Positions 2,901 to 56,460 of a stretch of 64,000 nucleotides of DNA are shown here, piece after piece. Numbering within the stretch: the first letter of the stretch is position 1; each line of letters opens with the position of its first letter. The stretch lies in contig JADNRX010000046.1 in NCBI GenBank assembly GCA_015501595.1, forward strand, positions 62,001 to 126,000, in the 5' to 3' direction. Position numbers and translations under genes: made by a program. This DNA comes from Hymenopellis radicata. Taxonomy: Eukaryota > Basidiomycota > Agaricomycetes > Agaricales > Physalacriaceae. The notes under the pieces are model-generated. The model searched no databases and was not told the DNA's origin. It saw nothing but the letters and a program-made list of their open reading frames with translations.

Positions 2901-3501
2901 TTGACCTACGAGCCACTGCGCACTCATCCCGCCGTAGAGGAAGACAAATCGTATGGTACGTTCATTCGTTCCTCTTCATTTTCACCTCGTCTCAACACGT
3001 GCTTCAGGCGGCTGAAGATGACATTGTACCGCTCTCCGCCCCCATCAAGACGAAGAATGGAGACACCGTTACGAGCATATTCATCGCCAAAGGCACGGTC
3101 ATCTCAATCCCCATCCGCGGTTTGAATAGGTCGGAGGAGATCTGGGGCGCGGACGCGAAGGTGTTCAATCCTGAGCGGTGGCTGGCCGAGGATGTGCTGA
3201 GCAAGAACGCGATGCAAGAGCATAGGCATTTGTTGACGTTTATCGATGGGCCAAGGACGTGTTTGGGGAAGCAATTCGCTATTATCGAGTTCAAGGTGAG
3301 CACTTTGAGGTTGTGTGTGGGCACGGTGCTGATGGCAGTGACATGTAGGCGGCGCTGTCGGTATTGATTCGGAATTATAAATTTGAATTCGAGTCGGGGA
3401 AGGAGGATATGGAGCTGGGCAAGTTTCCGGGGTTGATTGATAGGCCGAAGGAGATGTCGGCGGATGGGCCGTACGTGCCGCTGAGGGTGAGGCATGTGTA
3501 A
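2901..3501 (+). pseudogene. Cytochrome P450 C-terminal fragment
   Basis: Only the last ~190 residues of a P450 monooxygenase remain. A K-helix-like stretch (LRTHPAV) is followed by a region opening AAEDDIVPLSAPI, the PERF-like segment FNPERW, and the heme-binding loop FIDGPRTCLGKQFA with its cysteine. An intron at about 3296-3347 (GTGAGC..TGTAG) is followed by a final exon ending in PLRVRHV and a stop at 3499-3501. The N-terminal two thirds (membrane anchor, I-helix) is absent upstream. The junction between the first two segments has no splice pair that keeps both frames convincingly. The KETLR-type K-helix residues are also altered. I infer a truncated, non-functional relic of a basidiomycete CYP gene; family not assignable. 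Confidence 0.8.
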
Positions 3502-3895
3502 TTGAGGATTGACGACTTGTCTGTTTTGGTATGACGCCACGTTGATAGCTGGGCTTCATCGTGTTTATCTTCCGAGTGGGCTTGTATATTTAGGACTTCT
3601 GCATAATGTTCACGTTTCGTACTTGGCAAGGAATCATGGAGAGTTGATCAACACGGTCATTGGTGAGTACCATAAAAACATAAATAAGTAGATGTAGATG
3701 AATGCATGTGTCTGTAGGCATGGGGTGAATGTAGATGTAGATAATAGGAAATACCAAGGCAATGAATGTGAAGTCAAACCGAATGTTTGTGGAGTATATC
3801 GAGTCAAAATCCTCTAAAGCGCTAATCCGGCCCAAGTGCGATCCAAGAAGGATCTTCAACACCCTCCGGCGAAGCAGTAAAGCGCGGCCACCGCC
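3502..3895. other. Intergenic, nothing recognised
   Basis: AT-rich spacer between the P450 fragment and the 3' end of the split F-box gene. It has short repeated 'gtagatgtagat' tracts at about 3690-3745, and no coding or structural feature I can support. Confidence 0.4.
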
Positions 3896-4483
3896 TCATC
3901 TACTGTTGATAACCATCGGGTACCCAAGATAATTCCTGAATGCGGGGGGTACATTTGGTATACGCATGAGGATTTTCTTATTCTTGAGACGCCGCACGAA
4001 CTGCAGGGTGAGGGGAAGGTCGTATTCTGGGATCTTGGACTTCACCATCTGCTCCAGCGAGAGCGGAGCAGTGGGAGCAAAGTCCCCGAAGGGGGTCCTC
4101 TTTAACGCCAGAAAGTCGAGGTTCTCGAGAGGGATAACGCCCATAATGGTTTTCAACAGTTCCTTGGTCTCCGACTCGACGTCCTGTCTGTGGGCCTCGG
4201 GGTGTGCGGTCACCCATAGGCGGCGGAGTTTTGGTGTTGCGATGTATGGAAGGAATGTGGTAACTTCGCTAGGCGTTGTGTACGCGAGATGGAGAGTGAC
4301 GAGTGACGACAGCTCGAGAGGCTCAACGGCAGCCGTCACTGGTGGTTCCATAAAAAGGGTTTGAAGCATGTACGACAGTTCAAGCTTCCTAAGCGTGTCC
4401 TTGCTACCCGCTAGAATGCCGATCAGCTGGATGTTTGTCGGCCTATCCCAGCAAGGGATGTTGCTGAGACGGAGTTCCGTGAC
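3896..4483 (-). pseudogene. F-box/LRR gene, C-terminal half (split by giant transposon)
   Basis: The last 193 codons plus stop of an F-box/leucine-rich-repeat protein whose first 235 codons are at 20866-21564 on the same strand. The frame is open throughout and contains LRR-like periodicity (VTELRLSNIP, LRKLELSYML, LSSLVTLHL, LENLDFLAL) and ends in PMVINSR. The reading frame runs into the 6-bp duplication (codons GTC ACG, 4483-4478) and would continue into the other half with no shift. In the present arrangement the only ATG available lies inside the transposon terminus (4495), so any product would lack the F-box. F-box proteins of this type are expanded in Agaricomycetes and act as SCF ubiquitin-ligase adaptors. 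Inferred to be inactivated by the insertion. Confidence 0.85.
4478..4483. repeat. Target-site duplication, left copy (CGTGAC)
   Basis: CGTGAC directly abuts the left terminus TATGTTGTTC and is repeated directly after the right terminus at 20860-20865. The two copies are identical. Read on the minus strand the six bases are codons GTC ACG of the interrupted F-box gene. Confidence 0.93.
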
Positions 4484-5114
4484 TATGTTGTTCAAAATGG
4501 CAAAAAATTAAGTCGGTAGTTGATACACGAAAATCGGGTCTGAAGACAACACATACAACATGAGCTAGCAAATTTCACCACTAAGCGGCTTAGACTTGAG
4601 GAGAGAGAGATGGTTGCGCGGGGAGAGAGAGATGGACTCAGATGGTCGCGCGGGGAGAGAGAGATGGTCGCGCGGGGAGAGAGAGATGGTCGTGCGGGGA
4701 GAGAGAGAGATGGTCGCGCGGGGAGAGAGATATGACCTGGCTTGTCGGAGAGAGATATGGGTTGTCGGAGAGAGATATGGGTTGTCGGAGAGAGATATGG
4801 GTTGTCGGAGAGAGATTATGGGTTGTCGGAGAGAGATATGGGTTGTCGGAGAGAGATGACTTATGGTCGCGTGCGGAGAGAGATATGACCTTGGTTGCGC
4901 AGAGAGATATGACTTTGGTCGCGCCGGACAGATATGACGTTGGTTGCGCGGGGAGAGATGACTGTAGTAGGATACTTAACTTGAGCAGAGAGATGATAGA
5001 TGATGGAAGAGGTCGTCAAGGAGTAACACTTCTTCGGAGAATGCCGGTTCCGGTAAATTGCGGGCCGAGAGTGACCAAGGCTTGACGCTCGCGAGGAGCA
5101 ACTGCGCCACACAT
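4484..5114 (+). repeat. Left terminal inverted repeat
   Basis: About 631 bp matching, in inverse orientation, 20301-20859. Landmarks shared by both arms: the terminal ~120 bp including TTAAGTCGGTAGTTGATACA and CACCACTAAGCGGCTTAGAC; the purine-rich tandem array; and an inner block with 'agagatgatagatgatgg', 'acacttcttcggagaatgcc' and 'gagtgaccaaggctt', ending near 'gcaactgcgccaca'. The arms are not identical: several substitutions and one indel occur in the outer 100 bp, and the tandem array is longer here. Confidence 0.92.
4600..4860 (+). repeat. Subterminal tandem repeats (two unit types)
   Basis: Two adjacent arrays inside the left TIR. From about 4606 to 4730 a ~22-bp unit (GAGAGAGATGGTCGCGCGGG) recurs about five times. 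From about 4740 to 4860 a ~20-bp unit (GTTGTCGGAGAGAGATATGG) recurs about six times. The first unit is also repeated in the right TIR (20590-20740); the second appears there about once, so it expanded after the arms diverged. Arrays like this commonly serve as transposase-binding sites, which here is inference. Confidence 0.85.
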
Positions 5115-5179
5115 ACATAAAACACCTTCACCAAATGCTGAATGCGGAAAATACTGGTTGTATTGAATAAACTACTAGG

Positions 5180-8100
5180 TTAGATAGGCCCATTTCCAAC
5201 CTGACCATCCCAGTAGTTAAGATTCGCGGTGCGTGTGCGAATAGCATGATCAAGTCGTTGAGCCGCAGCGATATTACGGCGCGGTGCTGCTTGATGTACA
5301 CCGGTACTTGTGCGTGCACCGGGTGGCTGTGGCGGTCCAACAACTACTCCTTGCAGGTTGTCGTCATCGTCATCGTCATCCTCTTCCTCTTCCTCTTCCT
5401 CCTCTCCATCACGATTGCCGCCACCATTGTCACCACCACCGCCTGCACCATTGCCATCACCAGCATCTCCGCCAGCGTCCCCGTTGTTCTCGTCTTCCTG
5501 ATCGTCCTGGTTGTTGTTTGGCCGATTCTGCCGACGTACGCGCTCAACATTGAAATATTGCCGAGCAAAAAGGGGGTTATAATGCGGACCACCAGCGTTC
5601 TCGCCTGCATCATTGGGGGCATTGTTGCTCGTTTCAACAACAGTTCGTGGAGTCCCTGTAGAGTCCATAAATTCCACAGGCGCGAAAAACGAACCCGGTC
5701 CTGGCAACATGGTTCCGTGAACGTGACTAGAATCAAACGACCTGAAAGCACTGATTACAGTAGGTTCCACAAATAAAACAAAACTCACCAAGCAAAGTTG
5801 GGGCATGTTCGCCAAAAATAACCCCAGCTCGGTTGACAGAAAGAAAAATCTCGGGTTTTGGTATTTCCCCACCACCGAAGCTGACAGCAGAGTGTATGCG
5901 CCACATCTTTATCTGCATGTTGGGCAGCTAAATAATTTTTGCACCGATAAAGATTATATCCTGTCAAGCCTAGACGGTCTGCAGAACGACTCTTTTCTCG
6001 CATATCTGCCGCCATTCCTGGACAAAGAAATTTGGCGAGACACATGAGAGGCATACCATCCTGTCAAAGCATATAAGAATGAATTAATCAAATTTTATAA
6101 TCCCACCTCTGCTAGATCCCAACCCCGATGCATACCGGTGATAGACTCAACCTCATGTTGCGCATCATGCCCGTAAGCATCACCTCGTGCGCCACCTTGT
6201 TTTGCAGTAGCACCAGCGCCAGCCATAGTATTTTTCTGCGTAAAATGTTCAAACTGAGCGCCACGCTTGAATTGACACATAACTGATAATAATTTAGCAA
6301 AAATTAAAAAATTAAAATTAAAAAAATTACATGTGCTGAGATATTCATGCTCGACCATACGTTTATAAATCTCTGGATGGAATGCGTTATATATACCCCA
6401 ATCAATCTGAAATAATATTCAGATTTAATTTTAAAAAAAACAAAGAACGTACAATGCGCTTTCGACCAATAAGTTTTCGTCGAAAAGCATCACCATCATA
6501 GCCATAAACATTTACAAACCATTTCGGACACTCGTCGTCATCCACGCTAGTATCAGCTTCAAGATTCAGTAGCGACGAGGCCTGATGATCTAAATCCAAC
6601 GTAGCCTTTTGCTTTCCTTTATTCTTGCGTTGCTTGCGTTGCTGACGTCGACTAGGTTGTTTTGGCGGTAGAGGAGGATGAAGAGTATTAGCGTCGTCGG
6701 GTGAAATATAGATGATATGGCGACCACAACGAGCAACAATAGCAGGATCACGCTGAAATTCTTGCAAATTCAAGTCTCTTTGAGCGTGAAGTACTTTTGC
6801 GCCCTGTACAAAAATTAATAAACTGTGAAAAATAATAAAATATTATTACCGAAGGTGGATTCGCCAGGAGGTCTTCGTCCATCGTAAGTCCACAGCCGCG
6901 TAAGTTCTCTGCTGAAATTTGCTGAACGTAATGTATTTGGGAACATTGATTTTCCTTCGGCTCGAAATAACATTTTTTACATGTTAAAATCTAAGCAAAT
7001 ATTAGAAAATGCAACACGTCGTTAGTAAAATTACCTGAGGGTCCTTGGGAGTCAAATTATCTCGTTTTCCAATTTCTCTCAACTTGTTAAATTCTGCCTC
7101 CTATTATCGATGAGCATAGAAGTGTTACTGACTGAAAACCTCTTACCGAATTAATCTGATTAGCACGAAGATGTTCGTCTTGCAATTTCTCCAATCGCGT
7201 ACACTCCAAGGTTCGAATAAAACTCATCCCAGCTGCATTTCCCTTCTTGGCCTGGTCTTCCCATTTAGCTCTAACCTCTGTCCGACCTTCGTAATCAAGA
7301 CGAGTGCGCAGAAGACCCAAAAACTTCTTCAGGGTATTCAATCCTTCTCCGATCTCAAAGACGCGAAAACCGCGTTCTTGAAGGGCAGGACCAAGCCATC
7401 GCCAAGCCCGTAAGAAATTTTCCTCGGTTTGTAGAAAATATAAAACGTCGGGTAGAGCTAAGCGTGGGATGATGCGAGGGTTGTCGATAAGAAGTGTCAA
7501 CAGTCTTCCAGCATCATCATAGGTGCAGTGAATCTCGTCTGTGAACTGATGATAGCATTAGTTGATTACCGTCATATACCATAGGCAACGTACTTGTGCA
7601 GCTGACGCAAAGAAATATAAAGCATCAGGTTTCCAGTGATGCGACTCGGGAGACCAACAGTAGAGAAGTAACAATATCGTATCCTGCAGACGACCGAATC
7701 GGAGAAGAGCCTGATGATGATCGTCGCCTTCTATCGTCATGCGTGCAAGATACGCAGGGTCAACGATGCGACGCAAAATGGTATACAGACCGGACGCCTA
7801 TAAATTCATGTCAGCAGAGGAGTTGCAGTTCCTGGCAAAACAAACCCGAAGAGCTTTGACAAGGGTCTTGAGTTTGCCAACTTTGAATCACTTCATATCC
7901 TGAAGGACTAATCCCATGACGGTTCTCTTCAGACTACGAGTCGCTGCATCTTTGGGACGAAGAAACTTCTCACGCCCTTTTGGGACCGTCTTTAATGCAC
8001 GAGTAAGATCATCTATTGAATAGGTGGCCAGCTGTTAAATAAGATGAGGATGGATTTGAAAGGATGCAAAGAACATACCGCATCTTCAAGGAGAGCACCT

Positions 8101-9266
8101 GGCAGGACTGAACCGATAACACGCCTATACTGGGTCATGCGATACCTTAAAGGCACAGGTTTATCACGGAAAATGTAGTATGGGTCCTGCGGAAGCGTCT
8201 TTGTACTGGACGACGAGTCGGTATCAGATTCTGAGCTTGAGGTGTTGTCATCGACAGGATTGTACTGTACCGTTTCGACCGTAAGTTCGCGGGGCGTTAC
8301 GCGTTATGCCGCGAACTTACAGGAAATAAGTTCGTAACCAGGCACACCACCCGAAATTACCATATTTGGATGCTCCCGCCGTAGGCGGGAGCGAAAATTT
8401 CCTTTTTAGGCCTTACGGACCCTGAAAATAAGGTCCGTGATGCGTTATGCTTTATTGTAAGTTAGGTTCTCGACCCCGCGTTACGCGTTATGCGAACTTG
8501 GGGTCGAAACGGTACAGTAGTCCTCGTCATCCTCGTCCTCGTCGTCCTCATTCTCGTCGTTATCTTCCTCGTCGTCATCCTCTTCCTCGTCATCCTCTTC
8601 ATCCTCATTCTTGTTCCCCTTGCGATCGGGCAGTAATCCATGCTCTTCATACTCCTCTGGATCCAATGTTTCCAAAACTGCACCTGCACTTCCTCCGTCA
8701 AACGTGTTATACTCATAGGTGTCGGAGATGGGTGGAAACGTGTTCCGCTGGGTCATAGAGTCCTGCATCTTCATATTATAATGCTAAGAGGTATCAGAGT
8801 GATGTCTGTTTAATGAAATATGACGTACCGCCTTGATAGCTGCATTGAGATATCGCTCAAGCCAAGCCTGAGGATCTTCACTTCTGAATACACGCAGGTA
8901 GTATATCTCCATCAACATATTGACCATGAAAGGAATGGAGATCCCCTCTGTCTCCATGGGTAAGCCTAAGGCGGTGGTCACCCATTCGTGGGCGTGCAGC
9001 AGCTGTTGCCGATAGTCAGACATGACCAAGAGCCAATAAATACAACGTACTGTCTCGTCCTCGCGAATAAACAATGCCGTTAGGCTGTCCTGAAGGTCTG
9101 AACGTTGCTGCTTGTATCTCCTGCTGTTTTCACTTTGAGAGAAGGCAGCATGATAAGATTCGGCAAGCCAAGAAGGCGGTGTGGTGTCCGGCACCTTGAC
9201 ACCTGTGCTGACTACTTCAACATTTCCGATTATGTGTAGGTACTGATGTCCTGGAGGCTCTGACAT
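5180..9266 (-). pseudogene. Large acidic protein of unknown function, 12 exons, broken by MITE and stop
   Basis: Twelve exons joined by canonical 45-55 bp introns (exon ends at 8829, 8079, 7846, 7594, 7147, 7035, 6850, 6453, 6331, 6107 and 5789) give a frame-consistent 1,106-codon protein once the MITE is removed. The splice phases all agree, which validates the model. The ATG at 9264-9266 was chosen because an earlier start would need GTG. Visible parts: a helical N-terminal third; a long Asp/Glu tract (exon 2); a CKKCYFEPKENQC Cys cluster (exon 7); a basic QPSRRQQRKQRKNKGKQK segment (exon 8); and a Gly/Asn- and Glu/Asp-rich tail ending GQVGNGPI. I do not recognise the family. Two lesions: a 253-bp MITE at 8265-8517, and an in-frame TGA at 7888-7890. 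Its 3' end lies 65 bp from the left TIR. A nuclear or DNA-binding role is only a guess from the charged tracts. Confidence 0.8.
8265..8517. mobile_element. 253-bp MITE with TA target duplication
   Basis: Terminal inverted repeats CTGTACCGTTTCGACC at 8265 and GGTCGAAACGGTACAG ending at 8517, extended to about 26 bp with two mismatches, and flanked by TA at 8263-8264 and 8518-8519. This is the pattern of Tc1/mariner-type non-autonomous elements. It lies in exon 2 of the large acidic gene: removing it plus one TA restores the frame (GAC TAC AAT CCT), while reading into it meets a stop after about a dozen codons. Splicing it out through its own GT/AG would leave four extra bases, so it does not behave as an intron. 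Confidence 0.9.
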
Positions 9267-10095
9267 GGTGAGCACTACAATCTAGCGTGATCGATGATGG
9301 TGGTCAAAAGGAAAGTGAGCGTGGGAAACAACAGCCGAACAAAACATAGCTAAAGACAAACATAAATTCATTTCATTCAATTATCTAGTTACATGCAACT
9401 ACGTGAAGCTTAGATCCGGCAAGCAACCGAGAGCAATCCCAAAATCAGACCAGACAATCTTACCTTCGAGGAACCAACAAGCAAGAGTCAAGTCGTCGAC
9501 CAGTCATCGACCACTGTTGAGTACACTCTAGAAGAACGTCAACAAGGAGACCGACACGAGTGAAGGCATGACTAGCCCATGGTAATGACAATTCTGAAGA
9601 AGGAGAGTGAAGGGAAGTCAGTAAATCAAGCAACATACGGTGACATGTTGCCGTCGATGTTGACTGGCGCCGCCCGAGTCAAAGATCCATCAGGTCGAAC
9701 ATGTTGACCAGTTCGTCCTGCACTACGATGTGATCCCATAGGTGATGGTGAGAGCCATTGAACAGTTGTATACCGATGTCCACCTACGCGGCGGCGGTGT
9801 TGTTGTTGGCATCGACAGAGGAAGCTGTAGAGGAGGTGGAGAGGGAAGCAGAGGAGGAGACAGATGAGGAGATGGTGGAAAGTGGTAGTGTCATCCTGTG
9901 TGGCAGCTGGAGTCAAGCCACAGCGAAGGTCGAAGAGATGTGTGATAAATCGCGCGCAGCGAGCCAGATATCCTTGTAGCGGGGCAGAGCCGGCGCGAAA
10001 ACAAGCTGTCATTCACCGAATACGATCCTGTCCATCGTCCATTGTTCGCTAAGGAGAATCTGAGATGGGGATAGCGGGAATGCAGGTGAAGGGCA
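9267..10095. other. Upstream region of acidic gene; no gene supported
   Basis: No convincing gene. A 73-codon plus-strand frame at 9758-9979 is rich in Glu and Val because of a GAGGAG-rich tract. It has no start context, family resemblance or splice continuity that I can defend. The first ~150 bp probably holds the promoter of the minus-strand gene starting at 9266. Confidence 0.4.
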
Positions 10096-10099
10096 CAAC

Positions 10100-10686
10100 G
10101 GGAGGAGACGTCTGTTTGGGGTGGGCAGTGAGCGCGACGTCGGGTGAGGAGGCGCAAGGGCGCCAATCGCAGCGGCAGTGCCCTCTCTATATCTCAGAGA
10201 GGGCACAGACAAAAGACGCCTTAAATCCGCCCAGAAATGGGCGAGATTCGACCATTTTGAGGAGGAAAGGTCCTGCTGGGGTGGGTGGTGTGCGCGACGT
10301 CGGGTGAAGGGGCGTGATGGCGCCAATCGCAGCGGCAGTGCCCTCTCCATATGCTAGAGAGGGCACAGAGAAAAGACGCCTTAAATCCGCCCAGAAATGG
10401 GCGAGATTCCGTCATTTTGAGGAGGAGACGTCTGTTCGGGATGGGTGATGTGCGCGACGTCGGTTGAGGGGGCGCGAGGGCGCAAATCGTTGTGTGGATG
10501 CCCTCTCTATATGTCAGAGAGGGCACAGACGAAAGACGCCTTAAATCCGCCCAGAAATGGGCAAGATTCGACCATTTTGAGGAGGAGACGTCTGTTCGGG
10601 ATGGGTGATGTGCGCGACGTCGGGTGAGGGGGCGCGAGGGCGCCAATCGCAGCGGCAGTGCCCTCTCTATATCTCAGAGAGGGTAA
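10100..10686. repeat. 160-bp tandem repeat array with embedded palindromes
   Basis: About 3.7 copies of a unit with an exact 160-bp period: the tract CGCCAATCGCAGCGGCAGTG (or a variant) starts at 10161, 10321, 10481 and 10641. Each unit holds an inverted repeat GCCCTCTC..GAGAGGGC (25 bp overall; 10180, 10340, 10500, 10660), followed by 'cgccttaaatccgcccagaaatgggc'. A fifth, diverged palindrome follows at 10819-10843, one period on. Because 160 is not a multiple of three, the long minus-strand frames here change frame with each unit and are not genes. Confidence 0.9.
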
Positions 10687-11232
10687 CCGTCCAAGAACAA
10701 GGAAAATCCACCAGGAAGCGAGCGAGATCGTGTGGTTTTGAGGTTGGTGTTATATAATGCCCGGTGGTGGCAGCGACGGCGGCGCGGGCAGCGGCAGGGC
10801 GCGAGACATGGTGTAGTTGCCCTCTCTAAGTTGCAGAGAGGGCAGCCCACGAAGAAGTAGAGGAACCGCGCAGAAACAGACGTGAAACAGACGTGAACAA
10901 GTCGTAGTGACATGAGGGTAGGACAATGGTGGCAGTCCAACAATTCACTCTCCGACAAACCACCGCCCATGTCCCCAGCACCTTGAATGACTGCGAGATT
11001 CATGAGCTTCCTGAGCATTGAGGAGGAAAAGTAAGACCTACCTGGGCGTCGGAAGGAGAAAGCACCATGGAGTTGTCTTCCTCGACATCGAGTTAAATAT
11101 TAGAACTTTGTGCGTGTATCTGTTTGTGCGCATGATCTGAAATCTAACGTCTAATGAGAAAAAGACTCGAGGGAACAATTAGACTCTAACCTTGTGCCAC
11201 TCCGGCGCTATTTTCTCCGTGGCGTGGAGTGT

Positions 11233-11884
11233 TTAGCGACAAAGTTGGTCTTGAGGCAAACGGGGAGTAATGGTGCACTTGAACGGTCTTAGAGTGCACT
11301 GAGAAGTTGAGGCAGATAGTTAGGACACGGAACGACGACTTGAACGCGCAAACTGACCTGATGGTTCGGTGCACCGGCAGGCGCTCAGGTATGATAGGCT
11401 TTCCAGCATCGTCCTTGGCCAGCGAGACATCAAAGGCAGACAAGGACATTGTCATCGTGATGTAGAGCGAAGCATCCGCGAACAGACATCCGGGGCACAA
11501 ACTGGATAGTGTTCAGCTATGACTCGATTGTTCTGATTAGACCAAAACTTACCGACGACCGAATCCAAAGATAATTTCGTACGGATCCTGTTCCGGGTTG
11601 GGTCCCAGGAAGCGCTTGAAAATAGTGCCCTTGGGAATATAGTACCCGTCATGGACGTCGTCCTCGGTGGTCGTATGAGGAATGTCTATAGTTGTGTAGC
11701 GTCCATCATGTGCTGAATCTCAACGAAACGGCTCACCAGAAGGGACAGAAGGACGCATTCTCGTCACTTCCTTTATCAGAGCCTCCAAGTACGGAAGATG
11801 TTCCCGGTCTCCGAAATGCGGTACGCGTTCACGACCGCAGACGGCATCAACTTCTGTCTGCGCCTTCTACGCCTCAGGGTTAAG
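11233..11884 (-). pseudogene. Decayed cytochrome P450 C-terminal region inside the transposon
   Basis: Minus-strand exons resemble the last third of a basidiomycete P450: KAQTEVDAVCGRERVPHFGD, then a K-helix-like LEALIKEVTRMRPSVPSG, then DIPHTTTEDDVHDGYYIPKGTIF, and the heme loop IFGFGRRVCPGCLFAD with its cysteine, ending PFKCTITPRLPQDQLCR and a stop at 11233-11235. Introns fit at about 11509-11550 and 11290-11355. A TAG (LNPEA-stop-KAQTEV, near 11860) interrupts the frame where Gln is expected, and residues expected between the K-helix and PERF regions are missing. It is a relic, most likely host DNA captured by the element or by an element nested in it. It is unrelated in detail to the P450 fragment at 2.9 kb. 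Confidence 0.72.
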
Positions 11885-11886
11885 TG

Positions 11887-12700
11887 CTACCCACCACCAG
11901 CTTCTCTGACGATACGGTGTCCTGGTCCGGCGTGCGACGGTGCCGAGTAGCTGAAATCCGGGGTCATCTTACATGTCGTTAACATCCGTGGCGTCGACCG
12001 GCGCGAGTACCAGTCAAAGAGTCCGTGGTACAGTGTCGTCAGGCTCGACCAGCGCGGAGCCATGTCAACATTCACCGGCGCGGAGCCAAATGATAGATCC
12101 AGTGTCACTGTTGGAACCAAGTAGTTGAAGGCGTCTGCAAAGAAGGTCGGTCCAAATATAGTAAAAGGATGAGTGACGACGTACCATAGAGGAGAAGCCG
12201 TATTCAAGTTACAGCTCTAAAAAGACCCAGTCAATAACAAGTAGTAAGACAGACGGTAATAAATAACACACCGAATATTCGAGCACCCGTCCACCAGCAG
12301 CACTGGCAACTGTCCAGTCATTGTAGTGCGATGTTAGGATCACCGGCGTCGGAATGGCAAGTCGAAAGCATCCAAGACTCTTGAACACGGCTGGTCTGTC
12401 AAACAAAAATGGCGTCAGTTAATTTAATAAAGCTGAGTAAGGATAGACGCACCCCGAGTGATGGTTTCAGAACGGAAAGAAGACATGATTGACAATGGAA
12501 TACGGTAGCGTCATGTAGGGCACGACTGGCGGGTTCTTCTGTGAAAAAGTCAACAAAAGCATTGGAAAAGCAAGTAAATAACGCACTTGAACGTCGATGA
12601 CATGCTGTCTATGTTCTCTGAGCGTCTCCAGGGCATGATCCAGTGCCTGATGGGCGGCTACTTATCATCGTTGAATCCATGTCGGACGATGACTACCGTA
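11887..12700 (-). pseudogene. Decayed multi-exon gene of unknown family
   Basis: Consecutive minus-strand exons with good splice sites can be read: HQALDHALETLREHRQHVID; KNPPVVPYMTLPYSIVNHVF ending FPF-stop-NHHSG; PAVFKSLGCFRLAIPTPV...GGRVLEYS; SCNLNTASPLW; and DAFNYLVPTVTLDLSFGSAP...MLTT. Junction phases agree, but an internal TGA replaces what looks like Trp after FFPF (near 12465-12475). No family is recognised. It lies directly upstream of the P450-like exons on the same strand, and it is unclear whether the two were one gene or separate captured fragments. The exon pattern supports former coding function; the stop supports decay. Confidence 0.5.
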
Positions 12701-13135
12701 GAAAAAGGATCACGCTGGATGTTGGAAGGAATGGGTGCTGCCGCATGTGCACGGAGATCTTGCCGTTGTCGCTTGGGGTGATGCTGGAAGTTCTGCTGCT
12801 TGATGCCAGCATGACTCGAGCGCGACGAGAACCTGTTCGACGGTTCGCTGTGCCGGTGCTGCATGCGAGAAGACACTCGTCTGGCGAGATGGTGGTACGG
12901 AGGAGAGTATGATCGGACGGCAGGCATGGTGGCAGTCCAACGAGATGCGCGTCCTCCACGGCATTTGGACGTGGGGCGTACGCAACGGTGCAGGGAGAGA
13001 AACATATACGAAACTAGGAAAATTGAGGAGGTTGAAATGGGAGTAGAGAGAGACACACCTTCCTCATGATGTGAGCTGCAACCCAAATCATGTAAAACTC
13101 CTCTACACTCGTAGTCTAGACACAGAAAAAGCTTT
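12701..13135. other. No gene supported
   Basis: Overlapping open frames on both strands, none with recognisable domains. The minus-strand frame at 12658-13170 could be a 5' exon of the decayed gene below it (QRDPFSTVVIVRHGFNDDK) but ends in a stop before the next exon. Confidence 0.3.
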
Positions 13136-13470
13136 TTGAAACCGCGTACAGCGTCATCATCCGAAAGCACCTCCTCGTGGAGGGCCGTCTCGGCCTCATC
13201 GCGGTCTCTGCTTCAAAAGGATCCCCCAAATGCCCAAGAAAAGATGATTTGAAACCGCGTACAGCGTCATCATCCGGAAGCACCTCCCCGTGGAGGGCCG
13301 TCTCGGCCTCGTCGCGGTTTCTGTCAAAGAAGATCCCCCAAAATGCCCAAGAAAGACAATGCACAGAGTGCAATGCCGGGAACGCGTACAGCGTCATCAT
13401 CCGGGAGCACCTCCTCGTGGAGGGCCGTCTCGGCCTCATCGCGGTCCAAGAGAAAAAGGTAACCCAGGCT
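13136..13470 (+). repeat. Three-copy imperfect tandem repeat (~115-128 bp)
   Basis: The tract 'cgcgtacagcgtcatcatccg.aagcacctcc' followed by 'gtggagggccgtctcggcct' recurs from about 13143, 13257 and 13383. The spacing differs slightly (about 114 and 126 bp) because the intervening 'cccccaaatgcccaag' stretch varies. The array lies immediately upstream of the Ulp1-like gene, so it occupies its promoter region. Confidence 0.85.
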
Positions 13471-13544
13471 GACCACGTCTTCAAGGAGTCATGTGACCTT
13501 CGTTCGAAAATCAAACGCGTTCTGGCTCTTCCTCTTCAACCTCC

Positions 13545-14985
13545 ATGGCCAAGTCGCGCAAACGAAAGGTGTCGGACACGGCAGAGACACCACCGGCCAA
13601 GCGATTGAGCACGCCCCGGGATATGAGCCCACAGGATGAAATAGCATCAGGATCTGTGGTGCCCGCTGCTCGAAGTACGCGTCCATGCTTGACTGGCCCG
13701 TATCAGACTAATTAGTTGCATTGATTTCAACAGGTCAACTACAAATCTATCGGTCGTTTCGTCACACCCTAGGCTCCAGGCCAGAAGTCAGAGCAATCAC
13801 AATCCAGGACGATTCATTATCACTGTGCTTCAAAAAACTTGTCCGCCGCCTGAACAACAGTGACCTCCTGGCATCCCTATACCAATACCCAGACTGGACC
13901 AACTACTATGGGCTTGACATCATTCTTCAGGATGTCCTGCAGTTTTGCGGTCAGGTGGACAGCGCACCGTATCCTACTCATTCCGACGTGGTATCAGCCC
14001 GGGATGCGGCGGAACCGCTAGTTGACGTTCTGCTCAAGGCCAAACTCTTCTTGCCTGTTCGACGCCCTGACATGATAGCGGACTACGTGGAAGAGGTAAG
14101 TCCTTTGATATTGTACTAGAGTCCTAGTAAACGTGTTTAGGTGCAAAAGATTGCGTCCACTCCCCCGCGAACCAGAAATCCCAGGTTCGACAACGTGGAG
14201 AGCTTGAATCGACTCAAGCCACGTCAGTGGGTTAACGACGACATCATCAACTACCTTGTTCATGTGTGGAATGAGGTTGGGATGTCGAGCGTGCGCGTAA
14301 CTTCGACATTTTTTGGTTTGAAGTATCTTATGAATGGCGCATCGGTGCAGGATGCTCTAACCACCGACACACACGAACGCATTAAGGACGATGTCATTTT
14401 TGGCTTCAAGGTATGATTTTAGTGCATCGAAGCAAGTCTGTACTGAATATAGAATAGGCTAATCTTCGAACTATGGAACGCCTGCTGATTCCTGTTCACA
14501 AAGGCCTGAATCACTGGGTTGTCCTGTTTGCGGACTTTACCTCACGTGAAATGGGAGTCGTCGACAGTCTATCTTGTTCTCTTCGCTTCAAGGAACAAAT
14601 TTGTGCAGTACGTTGAAGTTATATCTATGGCTATGTTGTCTGATCTTGTATAGCGCTTGCAGGATATTATTACTGCGTATTGGTGTAGCCATGAGACAGG
14701 TTCACCACCTATCTTTAGGCGTGTTGACGTTCAGGTATGATTTCGATGAGAACCTGGAATGTAAGGCTGACTCGTGTACAGGTGCCGCATCAAGGTAATA
14801 ACTATGATTGTGGTATTCACTGTATCGTATGGCTTGAGGCTCTCGTGCTTAATGAGCCTATTCCTGTCACTGGGAGATCTGAACCTGCGTTCACGCTGCA
14901 GAATCTTACAGACAATAACATACCGGGCTATCGTATGCATATTTTACATGAGCTTCGCAGATTTTCAGATCACTTTAGAACGTAG
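13545..14985 (+). CDS. Ulp1-like cysteine protease (peptidase C48) carried by the transposon
   Basis: Six exons (13545-13674, 13734-14095, 14141-14410, 14458-14607, 14654-14734, 14782-14985) join in phase to give 398 aa. Ulp1/C48 proteases cleave SUMO-like modifiers and occur as accessory genes in several eukaryotic DNA transposons. The catalytic set is visible: His in GLNHWVVLF (about residue 273), Asp in MGVVDSL (about 290), Gln and Cys in VPHQGNNYDCGIH (about 335 and 341). The domain opens with the characteristic LKPRQWVNDDIINYL. The N-terminus carries a basic MAKSRKRK stretch that could be a nuclear signal. No stop or shift is seen, so it looks functional. It ends about 42 bp from the convergent neighbour. 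A deSUMOylase proper is the alternative, but the host range of the substrate cannot be told. Confidence 0.88.
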
Positions 14986-15026
14986 AAAGGGTTATTCTAT
15001 ACTAGAACTACAAGCGGTATATAGCT

Positions 15027-16116
15027 CTAAAGAACCTCTAGACAAGAGTTAGTAACAACATCAATTCAACGATGTATTGCTTACCGGGATGAGGCACGGG
15101 AGCAGCAGGATCAATCGCGTGAACACATGCATTTTCAGCACGGTAACGAACTTTCGAAATGGCGTCCTCAATAAGGTCCATAGTGGAGAGTATATGACTT
15201 TTACAGTCGTCGTTCATAAAGGGGATATGATTGCCAGCAAGAAGCTCGCGCGCTGTTTTGTATGTGTAATGAGGTCCACGTCCAAAGATTTTCAGGACTA
15301 CCTTGGACGTCCAGAACACAATAAACGCCATGTAACAAGTATCATGCTCTGAACAAGATGGCGCATGGTGAAGCTCTGGAACTGTTAGTGCCATCTCAGC
15401 ACGAACGATATGATAGCGTTCACGAGCCTCTGCAATAATGCGATACAAGCAAAGCCCCAGTGCCTCACACGTATCAGAATCGATGTGTTCCAGACAAATG
15501 TGGTCAGGAGAGAGGAGAGCGTGAATCGGGGAAATCCAGCATTCTGAAGTCAAACTATATCGACGGGAAAGGAGAATAATGTCGGAGGTTCGAAGAAGGG
15601 GATGGCAGTTGGCAATATCGTGTTCCAGCTCGCGAACGGCAAATTGAAAAAGGGCCGAAATCTCCAAGTAGTGGCCGACCTCGATGAGATTCTTTAAGCA
15701 TTCAAGACGATTGTCAGGTGATGGCTGCCAGCCCCTATATATATATCAGTTGAGAGGTCAAATCTAGGGAATGAAGACGCACGGCATTGCCCCCCACCAT
15801 GTTAAGAAATGCTCCGCCGCCTCGGGGGTGAGACCATTGAGCAAATGTGGAGTCTCACGACTGCCACTGATCTTGTGAGAGTCCTCCTGGCTAGCGTCCT
15901 CGCTGGAGTCCTCTGCGCTGGAGGCCACAGTCTCACTGTACGCCTGATCGAGAAGACCCGAAAGAGTGAATAAACGCCTTGTAAAAGGTATAGCGAATAC
16001 TGTTTTGTCGTCACTACACTGAACTAGGGTCAGTTTAAGAGTTTAAGAGAGATGAGTGAACAGACCTTCATATAGAATGGGTCTGGTTGGTCTGGTCGTA
16101 CGACCGTATCTGACAT
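15027..16116 (-). CDS. Conserved-looking unknown protein of the transposon
   Basis: Three clear exons (16116-16066, 16018-15783, 15734 onward) join in phase to about 320 aa. The start is MSDTVVRPDQPDPFYMK. A Ser/Glu/Asp-rich linker (ETVASSAEDSSEDASQEDS) precedes a predicted all-helical body containing LTPEAAEHFLTWWGAMPGWQ, LIEVGHYLEISALFQFAVRE and FIVFWTSKVVLKIFGRG. The 3' end is uncertain: reading on gives a stop at 15038-15040, while using the good intron GTAAGC..TCTAG ends it at 15027-15029 after HPEVL. Family not recognised, function unknown. The gene is transcribed divergently from the integrase across 100 bp and converges on the Ulp1-like gene, so it is part of the compact gene block of the element. 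Confidence 0.75.
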
Positions 16117-16216
16117 GGGAAATAACGCGTCACCAGATGGAAACAGTATATGTGAATGACAGGGGCTTTATAGCACTGTGACATGTCATCACGTCACATC
16201 TTGCACTCCGACATCC
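16117..16216. promoter_or_regulatory. Bidirectional promoter region (inferred)
   Basis: Only 100 bp separate the minus-strand ATG (16116) and the integrase ATG (16217). It must hold both 5' leaders and probably a shared promoter. A weak TATA-like 'ctttatagc' lies at about 16167. The rest shows no motif I can name. Confidence 0.4.
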
Positions 16217-18273
16217 ATGGCGAGCACCATCTTTCCCGATCTACCAGCTCATCTCCGTCGTAATGACAGCATAGTGCAGGCCCATCATACTATTACTGAA
16301 CTATCTGTTCGTGCAACTGCAATCCTGCAGCAGGAGGCAGATGCGCACCAAATTAAGTTTCATATCGATCGCATCAGTAATACTGCGCTTCCTCTTATTG
16401 AAGCACTCTGTGATGCGCCTGATGGACCGTCGGAGGAGTGGCTCTGCAGTGGTCTAGATGCGATGATATTATTAGCGACACAGCTACAACAAGCCCACCA
16501 CGATGCAACTACCAAGTACAGTGTCTTTCTCTCTGAATACATAATCTAAGTTGACGATTATAGGACGGAACCTAATGTTCTGCACTGGAATCCAGTCACA
16601 ATCCTTAGAACTGGCCGTAGGGGACGTCCTCGCAAGATCATATCACCTGCCTTTCTACGCCACGTCACAAATCCTGGCTACAAACGTAATTTGGAGCATG
16701 TTTGCCGTACAATCGGTGTCAGCAGTCAGCACTTTCGAAATCTATGCGATTCCCAAGGGATCAATCACCACAAATATTCTGAAATCTCTGACGATGATCT
16801 GGATCAAATCGTTCGGGAATACGTGGCATCGAAACCCAACAGCGGCCTTCGATATCTCATAGGACATCTTAGAGGCCGAGGGTTGCGTATTCAGAAGCAA
16901 CGAATCAAGGACTCCGTTAGTCGCGTTGATCCTGTCAGTCGCACCATACGAGCATACGCGAGCATTCCTCGAGGCCGCTACGAGGTTCCTCATGCTAATG
17001 CTTTATGGCATGTCGATGGTCATCATAAATTAATCCTATGGGGAATTGTCATTCATGGATTCGTGGACGGCAGAACACGAGCTGTAAGTTTTAAATTAAA
17101 TATTAATTAAATAATTTTATTACTAAAATATTAACTAGGTAACAGGTCTTCGAGCGTCCGATAATAATCGTTCGCTTACTGTTCTAGGACTTTTATTACA
17201 TGCAATTCGTGATTGGGGATTACCCTCCCGAATTCGTGGTGATCGCGGCCTAGAAAACCGCCTAGCAGCTCTTTATATGATTCTTAAAAAAGGATTAAAT
17301 CGTGGATCTTTTTTATTTGGCCCGTATGTCGACTCTGCTCTTAAAAACCTTATGGCTTAATTTTTTTCTAGCTCCACTCGCAATACTAAAATTGAGCGGA
17401 CATGGGTAGAAGTAGGACGCCAGTTCGTTCGTCTGTGGCGTGCCTTTTTCTATCGTCTTGAACGTCTGCACGGCCTGGATCGCAACAATCCTTCTCATTT
17501 ATGGCTACTGCACTATCTTTTTCTAGATGAGATCAATGAGGATTGTGATAAATTCCAAGAGGAATACAATTTACATCCCATCGGCGGCGAAGGACACGAC
17601 AACACACCTATGGTATTTTTCAATATTTACACGTAAAATCTAATTAATATTTTTATAGGATATGTATTTGAACGATCTTCTCGGTGCTGGAATTCATGTG
17701 TCAATGGACGACTTTGAAGGCGTCGATCCTGAAATCTTGGAACAGGTTTATGGGGTTGACGGAAATGAAAAAAAGCAAACATCAGGTGCAGGGCATGAAG
17801 ATGACGACATGGACTCTGATGAAGCAAGCGAAATGGAAATGGAGACGGAGGAGGAGGAGGAGGAGGAGGAAATTGACGATCTCGAAGGCTTTCCAGAACA
17901 GCCGAAAGATGAAACAGAGATTGGCTTCTGGAAACAGCTCCTGATTGGTCTTCGCGATAAATTCCTACCAAAGGCGGTGCACACACCTCGAAAAACGTGT
18001 CCTTTCGATGGCAACGAGATTGAGGACGTATTCGCACCACTATTGGCGGAGATGGAGGATAGCGGTAAACTACCCGAAGGCTATGGATTACTCGAGTCTG
18101 AGTGGCAGACGGAACTGTATCCAAGCTTTGAAATTCTTCGGAGTGGGCGGAAGGGATCAAAGGAGCTACGAATTGCCCTTCGCGTAGAGGACTGGCAGCC
18201 GAAGGCCGTGCGCTGGGGTAGAGCATTACATATTATGAATACTATGATAGCGTATGAGATGGAGACGAGTTGA
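16217..18273 (+). CDS. DDE integrase/transposase of the giant element
   Basis: Five exons (16217-16515, 16564-17083, 17139-17323, 17372-17612, 17659-18273) join in phase to 619 aa. It is a retroviral-type integrase core as found in many Agaricomycete 'integrase core domain' proteins. The first catalytic Asp is in WHVDGHHKLI (about 251), the second in IRGDRGLEN (about 308), and the Glu in TRNTKIERTWVEV (about 343), giving D-x56-D-x34-E. An N-terminal helical region carries a basic GRRGRPRKI patch, probably for DNA binding. After the core come LWLLHYLFLDEIN and a Glu/Asp run (about 435-455) before a conserved-looking C-terminal domain (EIGFWKQLLIGLRDKFLPKA...). No lesions. It should catalyse cutting and joining of the element ends. 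Upstream in-frame ATG at 16178 is less likely because it lies in the short leader. Confidence 0.93.
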
Positions 18274-18386
18274 ATACATTTGGTATAAAAGTCACTTGTA
18301 AAAACTTGATTCAGTGTCGACCTAAGGTTGCCCATTCACTCTTTATTCACTTTCGCTACTTTCGATCAGGTTTCGTAATATCTATC

Positions 18387-19968
18387 ATGTCATCGACACC
18401 GTCTGCCTCTTCCTCGTCACCTCCATCATCATGCGCGCACGGTACTTGCGACTGTCCAGGCTTTATAGCTTTTCCAAGCAACGCCTTTCAGTGCGGCAAC
18501 TGTGGTCATGTTCTCGGGAATCATCCTTCCTCGAAACCTGCATCCGTATCTTCCAAGGGTGCTCCCTCTTCTTTCACGAACACCAGCTTATCATCTTCCA
18601 AGAGCGCCTCCTCCTCATCTAAGACCACTCAGCCTTCCTCCAGTGCGCCACCTCAAGAGACAAGCCAGGAGAAACTCAAATCTCTCAAACACGTTTTAGC
18701 CAACTCAAGCGCGCAATCAGAGGTTAACAAGGGCTTGGCGGTGTGTTGTTTTACGTTGAACTTATGCCTCAGACTCAAACAGGTTATTTTTGATAGCGTG
18801 GTGGTAGTAGTCGATCTTCTTCAGGAGCATCGTCAGGAAAAGTGAGTCTTCTAGCCTTTTACTTCGAGCGAAGCTTACATATTGAAAGACATCACGGTCT
18901 ACCTCAAAGAAGGATGCAAAGAAGGATGCTAAGAACGTTCCTGATAGCAACGTTATAGAGTTAACACGAGTGATTGTTTGGCCACATGGACTGGTGCGAT
19001 TTTTCTTGTAAAGCATGCCGTAGCTCTGACAACAATCCCAGATGTTCGACGACGAGACTGATACCCTTTATCTTCGGACCGCCGATGGCAGTTCTATCGA
19101 GTGCATACCTCATCTCAAGTCGAACGCCAATGCCCTTTATCTGCTGCGCAAATGTGGTCTAGGCTCATTCGCTGATTCTCAGCCCGGCATTCAGATCAAT
19201 AGAACGTCGACGTACAAGGACATTACTACATGGCTGCGCTCAACTCTTCCTGAAGCATTTAATCATATTCCCCTGAACCATCCTACACCGTGGCGCCTTC
19301 TTACTCCCTCCATGTCGAAAGGCAAGGTTGAGCTGCATATAGCTGAGAACCCCACGGGTATCGATGTTGATTTTGCTCGCGGAAATCAGAAGAAACAATT
19401 TGTTGACTCGCAACTTTACTGTGGTACGTCATCTGGTTGATATGATTCATTCACTTATACGGCGCCACAGTTCCGTTCATGCCTATTCCAGAAGAAACTT
19501 TGATCAGGATTGGCTACATGAAGCCTTCGGGAAAGGGTACGCATGCATATTCTCGTCGTCTTGCTTGATTTGATATTGTTACTATAGGAAAGAAGCGCAA
19601 TGTGTCAGGCAACATCAAGAGCGAAGAGGATCACGAGCATCACTCAATGGTGGAGGTTATTGAGATCGGCGATTCGGACTCTGAGCACGAAAGCAAACGT
19701 GTTCGCACAGACGACGATGCCGAGTATGATGCCTCCCTTGTTGGTACGTCTTCTTGCGCTACTCTTTTGTCCAAAATCTCATCCCTCAATAGATGCAGAT
19801 CAGGTTGCGGAATCTGATCGTAAGCTCAGAGAGCGCCGCCATGCCATTACCGACTTAGAAGGCCTTAAAGGTCTTACTCCATTGCTGTACGACTTTTGCC
19901 AAGCTCAGAAGGCTTCTCGTATCGGAATGAAGCCTAAGAACCACTGGTCGGAGTTCTCTCATTATTGA
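18387..19968 (+). CDS. Ser-rich Cys/His-motif protein of the transposon, unknown function
   Basis: Seven exons (18387-18740, 18797-18841, 18910-18993, 19042-19423, 19471-19536, 19588-19743, 19793-19968) give 420 aa with all phases consistent. The N-terminus has a compact Cys/His cluster, C16-C21-C23 and C36-x2-C39-G-H41-x4-H46, resembling small zinc-binding modules, followed by ~90 residues of Ser/Thr/Pro-rich sequence. The middle (IELTRVIVWPHGLMFDDETD, LYLLRKCGLG, WRLLTPSMSKGKVELHI) is globular-looking. Then comes an acidic stretch with KRVR and a C-terminal ITDLEGLKGLTPLLYDFCQA. I recognise no family. It starts 114 bp after the integrase stop on the same strand and ends about 330 bp before the right TIR, so it belongs to the element; a cofactor role in transposition is inference. 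Confidence 0.82.
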
Positions 19969-20300
19969 TTCGCTTCATCCTTCAGCATCATGCCGCCAAT
20001 TTATCAGCAGTAACCTGTCTACGTGGATCTGTTCATACAATACTTGCTTGTGGTCGCAACAGGCAAAGCTACATGTTTGTTGCCCTATCATCATTTTAAT
20101 CACTTTTGCTTCGTGTTGGTAGTATAGGTACAACTTCCTTGTTTATTATTCAGGTTTTAGTGGATTGATCGCTCAGTATTTTCCCTCATTCAATATCTAC
20201 TTTACATACAGCTAGTACACCTTTACTTACCACCTGAAATATACTGTGATAGTTTTTTCTGTGTGGGGTGAAGTTCAAGGTCGACATGACACAGCACGAT

Positions 20301-20859
20301 ATGTGGCGCAGTTGCTGCTAGCATTAAGCCTTGGTCACTCTCGGGCCGCGATTTACCGGAACCGGCATTCTCCGAAGAAGTGTTAGACCACCTCTGCCAT
20401 CATCTATCATCTCTCTTCGTGTGACCCACTGCACGTCATATCTCTCTGCAAGACCATAAGTCATCTCTCTCCGGAGTGACCCACTGCAGCGCTGCAGGTC
20501 GTCTCTTTCCGGCGCGACCTACTGCAGGTCATATCTCTCTCCGCACGCGACCATAAGTCATCTCTCTCCAACAACCCAGGTCATATCTCTCTCCGCATGC
20601 AACCATCTCTCTCTCCGCATGCAACCATCTCTCTCTCCCCGCACGACCATCTCTCTCTCCCCGCGCGACCACCTCTCTCCCCGCGCGACCACCTCTCTCC
20701 CCGCGCGACCACCTCTCTCTCCCCGCATGACCATATCTCTCTCCTCAAGTCTAAGCCGCTTAGTGGTGAAATTTGCTAGCTCACGTCGTCTGTGTTGTCT
20801 TCAGACCCATTTTCATGTATCAACTACCGACTTAATTTTTTGCCATTTTGAACAACATA
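20301..20859 (-). repeat. Right terminal inverted repeat
   Basis: Inverse counterpart of 4484-5114. The inner end near 'atgtggcgcagttgc' and the outer end GAACAACATA at 20859 are both recognisable. The central array consists of 'ctctctccccgcgcgaccac' units (about 20590-20740), fewer and more uniform than on the left. Confidence 0.92.
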
Positions 20860-20865
20860 CGTGAC
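20860..20865. repeat. Target-site duplication, right copy (CGTGAC)
   Basis: Identical to 4478-4483. On the minus strand it forms codons 234-235 (Val-Thr) of the F-box gene, the same two codons that open the C-terminal half. Confidence 0.93.
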
Positions 20866-21564
20866 GTTCAACTGGCACGAGAACTTCGACCAGGAATAAG
20901 AGCTGGCGCTTATAGAGACCACCTCGAGAGATGGGGGAACATATGCCGTCTCGTCATCAGAGACGGTCAGGAATGGCGCCTTGTGGTTCCAGTGTGTATA
21001 TCCCGCCATCAGGAAACTGACTTCTCTGGGAAGACTATCGGAGCGAACACACTCCTGCTCCCAGCGACGAAGATTGGGGAGAGCATGGCACTGCTTGAGC
21101 ATGATCGCGACCGCAACGTGATGCGTCCAGCACGTCCCCTTTAGATGGAAGGAGCGGATGCGACTAGAGTGTGTGAGGAGGAGGCTCATCAGAGCCTCGC
21201 AGTGGTCGACACTGAATAATTCTACTGCTTCCTTGTCGCTGTCGGGTGGGACAGTAAACTCAATGTCAAGAAGCTTTGTGCGAGAGTGGACGAGTGCCAG
21301 CTTCGTCGTCAGGAAGACGTTGGTGTCTGTGAGGGGGATACGGTAATTGGGTGTGGTCCAACCGACCTGGATGGTCGACCACAGTGAGGGCGTCTCCTTT
21401 ATCAACATGTTGATGTCTCTGCAGACGGCGCCGAGACGGAGCAGGGCCTTCTCGACCGGTAAGCCAGAGACAGCGGGAACAAGGCGGATAATCTCGGAAA
21501 GAATCTCGTTGGGCATGCCCAGAAGAGATGGCGTAGTACTGGCGGTGAGGGTAGACATCGACAT
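20866..21564 (-). pseudogene. F-box/LRR gene, N-terminal half (split by giant transposon)
   Basis: The first 233 codons (235 with the duplicated Val-Thr) of the interrupted gene. After MSMSTLTASTTPS comes an F-box (LLGMPNEILSEIIRLVP...ALLRLGAVCRDINMLIKE), then TPSLWSTIQVGW, and LRR-like segments (LLDIEFTV, IRSFHLKGTC, LEVVSISASS). The open frame stops 11 codons into the transposon terminus (at 20824-20826), which would give a truncated protein carrying the F-box but only part of the LRR region. The remaining 193 codons are at 3896-4483. No other lesion is seen in either half, so the insertion appears to be the sole damage. Confidence 0.87.
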
Positions 21565-22480
21565 TGATCTGCCCTTGGAACAAGTTGTCAGTTTGAAGAA
21601 TGTGGCAAGAACGCGATTTGGAGACTTACTGAGATTGTCGGATCGAGATTGGAAATGCTGCCGTTAGAGAAAGTGTGGGATGGCGAAGGGAATAGCAGAC
21701 GCGATGATTATATACGCCAGACTCGCCAGGTCCCGGAATCAGACCGCATGGAGCTAGGCTGTGGACGCGTTTGTTTGTTCGACGTTTTGGGAGCCCATTG
21801 TTCAATGGCAGCCTAGCAAAACGGGTAGCCATTACGTAGTAACGTGGACGCAGCTTGAAGATTGCAGAGACTCCTGCAAGTCGTCGCAGGGCAAGTGAGG
21901 CGTCGTATAATATGATTGGGGAGGTGCGTCGCGTACAGAAAGTTTGCGATACGGGGCATTTTGGAGAGATACTTACCTCCAAATTTAGACAACAATAAAA
22001 ATGACAAGACCATCGCAATTGCATTGTCCTGGATGTTTAGGAGAAACCTGGCGAGTTTAATCTTGTGGACCAGCCGGGTTAGTTGATCCTCCATGTGGCC
22101 GGGGACGTCAGGAACAGAACTGTCCGAGGACAGTGTTACCCTGGACTAAGAAATTCCAGGCGTCGCCGGACGATAGCTTCCTTCTGAACGCGCTGTGGAT
22201 CATGGTGGTCATCTTACAAGTTGAAACGGATCAATTCAATTTTGTGATCCGATCAACCCTGCAGTTGAACCCTCTTCCTGCTTCGAACCACACAGCGTTT
22301 CTGCATGTCTGCGTAAGGCTCTGAATGCTCTAACGAATCTTGAACGAACCGGCCCCTTCATATCACGCCGCGTCTCTTGTCGCAACTCGGCTCCTCTTCT
22401 GGAGACTGCAACCCTTCTTTCCAAGTCCTTTCCCCGCTTCTATATTCATCAGGATCAGTTTCTTCTGCTCGTCGTTCAGT
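21565..22480. other. Upstream of F-box gene; no gene supported
   Basis: Holds the presumed promoter of the minus-strand F-box gene. Minus-strand frames at 21626-22094 contain a hydrophobic stretch (IAMVLSFLLLSKFGG) followed by a splice-like GTAAGT, which could be a relic of a membrane-protein gene, but no family can be assigned. Confidence 0.35.
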
Positions 22481-54456: not shown

Positions 54457-54558
54457 TATCTAAGACCACCTACTCAACGCGAGCAAGAAGTATCATACAT
54501 TCATCAGAACGGTGCGTTCATTTTCTCTAATTAGGTCATCATGCATGAACAATCATCA

Positions 54559-56204: not shown

Positions 56205-56460
56205 TGTGGGGGAGATGGACAAATCATTTTGAACGTATTACTCGCGCTTATATGCGATGCCCAAGCACAGGCGGTGGCATGTTGGACTCGGCCCACGGCT
56301 AGACCGGCTGGAGCATCCAGAGCCGCGGCCATCGACCCTTTGGGGCCCGGGGACGCGGAAGATTGGGGAACTGCCTATTTTGGGCGATGTGGGTGGATGT
56401 AGGTCCAGGCTTCCGGTCCAAGATGGCTCTTTTGGGCCGACGGGGATGTCGGAGACAAGC

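Follow-up and report, generated by a model that had tools for sequence, protein, structure and literature searches.

A DNA transposon of 16,376 bp occupies positions 4484-20859 of the window, a 64,000-nucleotide stretch of the mushroom Hymenopellis radicata (Agaricales) that runs from position 62,001 to 126,000 of contig JADNRX010000046.1 (C807 below). The element encodes a DDE integrase, an Ulp1-like cysteine protease and three further genes, here named A, B and D (Table 1). Both junctions are exact to the letter, with CCGTGAC followed by the outer bases TATGTTGTTC on the left, and the outer bases GAACAACATA followed by CGTGACGTT on the right. Aligned arm to arm (620 against 559 bases), the long terminal inverted repeats share 476 identities, with 53 mismatches and 121 gap columns. 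In their outermost 120 bp the arms are conserved, with 115 identities against 4 mismatches and 2 gap columns; further in they consist of drifting tandem units of 20-24 bp each (AGATGGTCGCGCGGGGAGAGAG and variants in the left arm). An earlier note, made from the letters of this DNA, had described inverted copies of ~560-630 bp at both termini, an identical CGTGAC on either side, and a DDE integrase with several other intron-containing genes inside. The arms of ~620 and ~560 bp, the exact 6-bp repeat and the spliced gene models bear out this description.

Insertion site and gene content

The insertion splits a host F-box gene. Rejoining the flanks with a single CGTGAC yields a continuous minus-strand open frame, of which the 5' part carries the F-box-like match. 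An uninterrupted F-box paralogue lies on the same contig beyond the window (C807:49127-49622) and matches the joined flanks at 92% identity across 499 of 500 bases. Around the junction, 160 of 167 positions are identical with no gaps, and the paralogue has only one CGTGAC. This locus is a paralogous empty site, of the kind that the earlier note had proposed looking for, and it lies on the element's own contig.

Gene models were built with a small splice-aware script and checked by hand. The integrase gene comprises five exons (16217-16515, 16564-17083, 17139-17323, 17372-17612 and 17659-18273) and matches the Pfam family rva_4 at 4e-56. Its catalytic residues are spaced as D251-56-D308-34-E343, and no HHCC pattern was found in the protein. 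Among 7,992 candidates scored, 158 homologues were found at E <= 0.001, the best being 42-45% identical and from Marasmius, Mycena and Pleurotus. With Favolaschia included, integrases of these Agaricales are ~35-45% identical. D251, D308 and E343 are invariant across 12 aligned rows, 11 of them picked from the homologues. The only PHROGs match is a piece of the integrase, to a transposase family (1e-4). The protease matches Pfam C48 (1e-12) and human SENP1 (1.5e-9) and keeps the catalytic triad H273-D290-C341. Domain and triad thus assign the gene to the C48 family, with a predicted protease activity.

Table 1. Features of the element and its site (positions in the window), and gene order in related insertions (positions on the contig named)
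Feature	Position	Strand	Remarks
Disrupted host F-box gene, 3' part	3896..4483	-	by itself without Pfam match
Target site duplication CGTGAC, left copy	4478..4483	.	exact repeat
Left terminal inverted repeat	4484..5103	+	~620 bp, arm alignment
Gene A	5180..9267	-	12 exons, 44-48-bp introns, modelled on C529 copy; ~1,100 residues from summed exons
Nested 256-bp repeat	8264..8519	.	inverted ends CTGTACCG..CGGTACAG, TA duplication, within gene A exon
160-bp tandem repeat, 3.6 copies	10101..10683	.	also in C529 copy
Copy-specific mosaic of host-like fragments	10873..12510	.	unrelated 1.4-kb stretch here in C529
Ulp1/SENP-type cysteine protease gene (C48)	13545..14985	+	6 exons, 398 residues
Gene B	15038..16116	-	3 exons modelled, 315 residues, no family matched
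DDE integrase/transposase gene	16217..18273	+	5 exons, 619 residues, open frame
Gene D	18387..19968	+	~420 residues, Cys-rich N-terminus (CDCPGF..CGNCGHVLGNH), Ser-rich linker, no family matched
Right terminal inverted repeat	20300..20859	-	~560 bp, arm alignment
Target site duplication CGTGAC, right copy	20860..20865	.	exact repeat
Disrupted host F-box gene, 5' part	20866..21663	-	F-box-like, Pfam E 5.7e-06
C473 (F2)	A 69938; Ulp1 82647-85888; B 86145; integrase 88643; D 91245	A-, Ulp1+, B-, integrase+, D+	own-genome search
C471 (reversed)	integrase 145; B 4198; Ulp1 4836-6027; A 10973	integrase-, B+, Ulp1-, A+	own-genome search; cut by contig end
C968	Ulp1 3008-4202; B 4373; integrase 5822; D 8696	Ulp1+, B-, integrase+, D+	own-genome search
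C1273		D-, integrase-, B+, Ulp1-	own-genome search

Further insertions and the conserved gene block

Copies were sought in the host's own genome (75.5 Mb in 1,405 contigs), the sole fungal genome searched, and the gene match counts from it are lower bounds. A search with the left end matched three further contigs (C529, C916 and C1273). A 22-base terminal pattern beginning TATG, with one N and at most two mismatches, matched 19 times genome-wide, against no match for the reversed pattern used as a control, so the matches are not due to chance. They define a family F1 with three insertions, a diverged family F2 with three insertions, and two elements of ~1 kb with F2-type ends. The F2 terminus TATGTTGGTCAAAATGGCAAAATATTA agrees with F1 in 25 of 27 bases, and the F2 integrase exon is 68-74% identical to that of F1. 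Of the 19 matches, 18 could be placed in insertions.

The second complete F1 copy (C529:13596-33186, 19,591 bp) has both ends present and is 94-99% identical to the window copy in most common stretches, with 89.7% in the tandem-repeat stretch and nested inserts of its own. In six cases both ends of a pair are on one contig, and five of these pairs are flanked by exact 6-bp direct repeats that differ between insertions. Besides CGTGAC in the window, these are AATGGT in C529 (ACCATT on the opposite strand), CCATAG in the 26,442-bp F2 copy on C473 (68964-95405), and TGCGAC and CGCCAG around the two short elements with TATCTTGG ends (1,080 bp on C918 and 1,006 bp on C1329). The further full-length copies with different duplications that the earlier note had suggested seeking are therefore present in both families. 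Three more insertions were assembled across contigs by flank agreement in the correct orientation, namely C916 with C1273 (F1, GGCAGA), C402/C319 with C968 (F2, GTAGCC) and C471 with C918 (F2, GGAGAC). C916 and C1273 carry one end each and, as their outer six bases agree, are probably halves of one insertion. The three cross-contig cases are weaker evidence because flank agreement also served as the pairing criterion. In total, eight insertions have 6-bp duplications, none of which extends to a seventh base. The short element on C1329 (L079, 91580-92600) contains long internal inverted repeats and is close to a foldback structure.

Both families share one gene order and orientation, A(-), Ulp1(+), B(-), integrase(+), D(+). 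All five genes are found in the window, C529 and C473; part of the block, likewise in this order, is found in C968, C471 and C1273. At least six matches were listed for gene B, all on contigs bearing such an integrase. Gene D also had at least six, five on integrase-bearing contigs and the sixth on C918, 6 kb within the F2 end of the insertion whose integrase part lies on C471. The first exon of gene A had at least three listed matches (window, C529 and C916), and its C-terminal exon at least 15. Among the latter, C435 and C619 also carry a more distant integrase. The closely spaced pair of gene A and integrase at C619 was considered as a further element and rejected, with no convincing ends within the 4.9 kb examined. 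Since the four partner genes have been kept with the integrase in two diverged families, they are probably needed for mobility or survival of the element.

The window copy is thus a real multigene DNA transposon. The earlier note's proposal of a multigene integrase transposon draws support from the other copies with different duplications, the empty site and the conserved gene set. Integrase frames are open in both the window and C529, and the two copies differ by 11 nucleotides and 5 residues. Between F1 and F2, nonsynonymous divergence (dN) of the integrase is 0.18 across 474 codons and synonymous divergence (dS) is saturated, which is compatible with purifying selection. The family's movements were recent enough that its duplications are still exact, and these attest to past mobility only.

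Classification and alternative explanations

IS3EU elements are described as having TA..TA ends, 6-bp duplications and a DDE transposase lacking an HHCC motif, in the parts of the account drawn on here (PMC10045372). The element has all three of these group-wide features, in line with the link to IS3EU that the earlier note had suspected. Duplications of 6 bp flank five of the six same-contig pairs as well as the three cross-contig insertions. All 19 matched ends start with TATG or TATC, the search pattern itself starting with TATG and allowing two mismatches. The first catalytic D (D251) falls within the 100-300 residues from the start expected of IS3EU transposases. Overall, the element is very probably an IS3EU-type DNA transposon with several genes.

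Compared with IS3EU/GingerRoot as presented in the same parts of that account (PMC10045372), the element differs in having four conserved partner genes, a size of 16-26 kb, and ends of ~0.5 kb with subterminal repeats. The earlier note held that size and gene set exceed what is known for IS3EU. This holds in part only. Fungal IS3EU families with transposase, TET/JBP and alpha-kinase genes have been published from rusts, as far as the sections used here describe them (PMC12730594), so multigene families as such are not new. What is new is the conserved gene set, together with the size of 16-26 kb and with subterminal repeats in ends of 0.5 kb. From those same sections, the TET-carrying rust families resemble the present element in their 6-bp duplications, inverted repeats longer than 30 bp, and several genes with one opposite to the transposase (PMC12730594). 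They differ in that TET/JBP lies between transposase and alpha-kinase; the present families have A, Ulp1, B and D instead. Neither alpha-kinase nor TET/JBP gave a Pfam match in the 30 of 76 open frames scanned or in the spliced models. No published account of the set of A, Ulp1, B, integrase and D was found in titles and abstracts, although one may exist in subscription papers or Repbase reports, which were mostly outside coverage.

An HxD...H pattern forms the iron site of 2-oxoglutarate oxygenases. Gene A ends in a domain with HxDxD and, 51 residues past the first His, HGTMLP, both invariant in seven aligned rows. This raises the question of whether the gene A product is a TET/JBP-related oxygenase of the Fe(II)/2-oxoglutarate type, which would make the element a further TET-carrying IS3EU and would be compatible with the classification above. 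The alignment represents families, with the near-duplicates L049, L050, L052-L055, L058 and L061 left out (L054 also for its stop) and with rows L051, L060 and L062 incomplete. In the sections of the rust study used here, fungal transposons, IS3EU families included, often carry TET/JBP genes, and a diverged PE-type TET barely visible by sequence was recognized through structure-based comparison (PMC12730594). The HxE hallmark given there for PE-type TET is absent from gene A, however, and no conserved Arg follows HGTMLP in the seven rows. Searches with the domain gave nothing in Pfam, with thresholds of E <= 1 or 10, and nothing in the PDB at E <= 10. The profile Tet_JBP (PF12851) gave nine genome matches at E <= 10, none at a gene A place. 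Aligned by hhalign to five TET-like candidates from this genome, which themselves fall short of the Pfam cut-off, the domain reached a probability of 0.1%. For gene A as a whole, only sub-threshold Pfam matches were listed, largely to acidic stretches, and PHROGs gave no accepted match. An oxygenase thus remains a serious candidate for gene A, albeit one we consider somewhat less probable than the contrary. Weak Tet_JBP matches below the cut-off (E 1.7e-4 to 2.7e-3) on C391, C1362, C699, C625, C1285 and C634 mark candidate TET/JBP genes elsewhere in the genome; five of these six loci were those compared by hhalign, which showed no relation to gene A.

Large elements could also arise when a compact integrase transposon is swollen by cargo, the other genes being host genes captured by chance. 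Chance cargo does exist here. The mosaic in the window is a patchwork whose pieces resemble several other contigs at 70-97% similarity, and it includes a cytochrome P450 fragment on the minus strand (~11186-11850, Pfam 9.5e-22), and C529 has a different stretch at the same place, which is therefore a variable cargo site distinct from the conserved block. Nested repeats add to the load. Several relatives of gene A, on C402, C319, C840, C907, C642, C1040 and C239, also sit on contigs with no integrase among the matches listed, C402 and C319 being read as half of an F2 insertion. Chance capture is nevertheless hard to reconcile with a set of five genes that keeps its order and orientation in both families, with B 49-53% and D 44-45% identical. 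In addition, B, D and the first exon of gene A have no match elsewhere in the genome among the matches listed. We regard capture by chance as an improbable origin for the block.

Integrase transposons of other groups offer a poorer fit. Ginger1, in the portions of its description used here (PMC2836005), likewise has an integrase-like transposase and, in some families, an Ulp1 protease domain. Its own features are 4-bp CCGG-type duplications, TGTNR ends, a zinc finger, an Ulp1 domain fused to the transposase, and a size of ~2.6-7 kb. The present element has neither such duplications, nor such ends, nor a fused Ulp1.

Maverick/Polinton elements combine an integrase and a cysteine protease with a 6-bp duplication and large size. 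An element of that kind, or another integrated virus-like element, is suggested by the shared integrase, protease, 6-bp duplication and size above 15 kb but is very unlikely, as Pfam scans of the 30 of 76 open frames and five spliced models detected no polymerase B, packaging ATPase or capsid, 41 and 64 seed-pattern stretches found in IMG/VR for the integrase and the gene A domain included none that was confirmed, and the 1-kb elements, having F2-type ends and duplications, look like ordinary transposon derivatives in their behaviour. The earlier note's view of a gene complement other than that of Maverick/Polinton is thereby supported, with no Polinton-type gene detected beyond integrase and protease.

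Several observations count against an IS3EU-type transposon with a functional set of genes. On C402, the flanks of the sixth same-contig pair mirror each other and form no direct repeat, which makes the contig palindromic at that place, and a single end on C484 has no partner. The ends TAYGG..CCRTA given for rust IS3EU in the sections used (PMC12730594) are not those found here (TATGTTG), although this feature is one reported of the TET-carrying rust families rather than of IS3EU at large. With a strict text match on three motifs, D, D and E were recovered together in just 42 of 121 stored homologues, many being partial or variant. Gene A is broken in all three F1 copies examined, by the 256-bp insert and an in-frame stop (7888-7890) in the window, by frameshifts in C529 and by stops in C916. 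Ulp1 is interrupted in C529, and the F2 copy on C473 has one stop in the integrase and another in a gene A exon. The functions of A, B and D, finally, are ones that we infer.

The palindrome at C402/C319 could be either a genuine inverted duplication or an assembly artefact. Two gene A copies stand there in opposite orientation with mirror-image flanks (C402:113064-123786 and C319) and are 99.7% alike.

Putative mechanism and state of the copies

The element would move as DDE transposons do, with a 6-bp stagger and by either cut-and-paste or copy-and-paste. The integrase, which appears retrovirus-like, might bind the ~27 bp common to the termini, perhaps aided by the subterminal repeats, and would then cut the ends and insert them with the 6-bp stagger. 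The Ulp1-like protease could take SUMO off the integrase or off host silencing proteins. Genes A, B and D may have stayed with the transposase for accessory roles, most likely in binding the ends or in relieving silencing at the chromatin or DNA level. The two 1-kb elements, which have F2-type ends and are too short to encode the integrase, might be mobilized in trans. More tentatively still than for the oxygenase itself, we suggest a lineage with a fixed anti-silencing kit. This would consist of a deSUMOylating protease, a gene A product forming a new HxD-type class of DNA- or chromatin-oxidizing enzymes related to TET/JBP in structure only, and products of B and D for end binding or targeting.

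To our knowledge, few large DNA transposons have a conserved, non-viral gene set. Judging from its gene content, the element may come equipped for dealing with its host, and it ties an integrase transposon to SUMO removal via a separate gene. A role of the partner genes in mobility or survival is testable, and within a single mushroom genome there are several insertions to study, along with short derivatives and a paralogous empty site.

Genes B and D offer few further clues. An impression by eye of gene B as BTB-like was dropped, as no family matched. Single-sequence folds of its main exon and of P0121, a public Hymenopellis radicata gene model on the C529 copy that agrees with exons 1-4 of gene D, were discarded at a mean predicted local distance difference test score of 38.7 and 38.3, respectively. 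Homologue searches returned nothing for gene A and the host's own protein only for gene D, both weak negatives since acidic and serine runs may have swamped the query words.

Nested insertions are common in the copies. In C1273 there are three, each ~5 to 8 kb long; one sits within Ulp1 and the other two within the final part of the integrase gene. The 256-bp repeat in gene A is missing from the matching position in C529 and C916. It has relatives in the C1273 copy (152249-152507) and two more at C529, one inside the end of the copy (13632-13892) and one next to it (33232-33477), and the repeat therefore seems to insert often into or near such elements. Away from the transposon, the window contains a direct repeat of 1.88 kb (54555-56408 and 61831-63671, 89% identical) and an inverted pair of ~390 bp (36955-37337 and 49240-49623, 79% identical).

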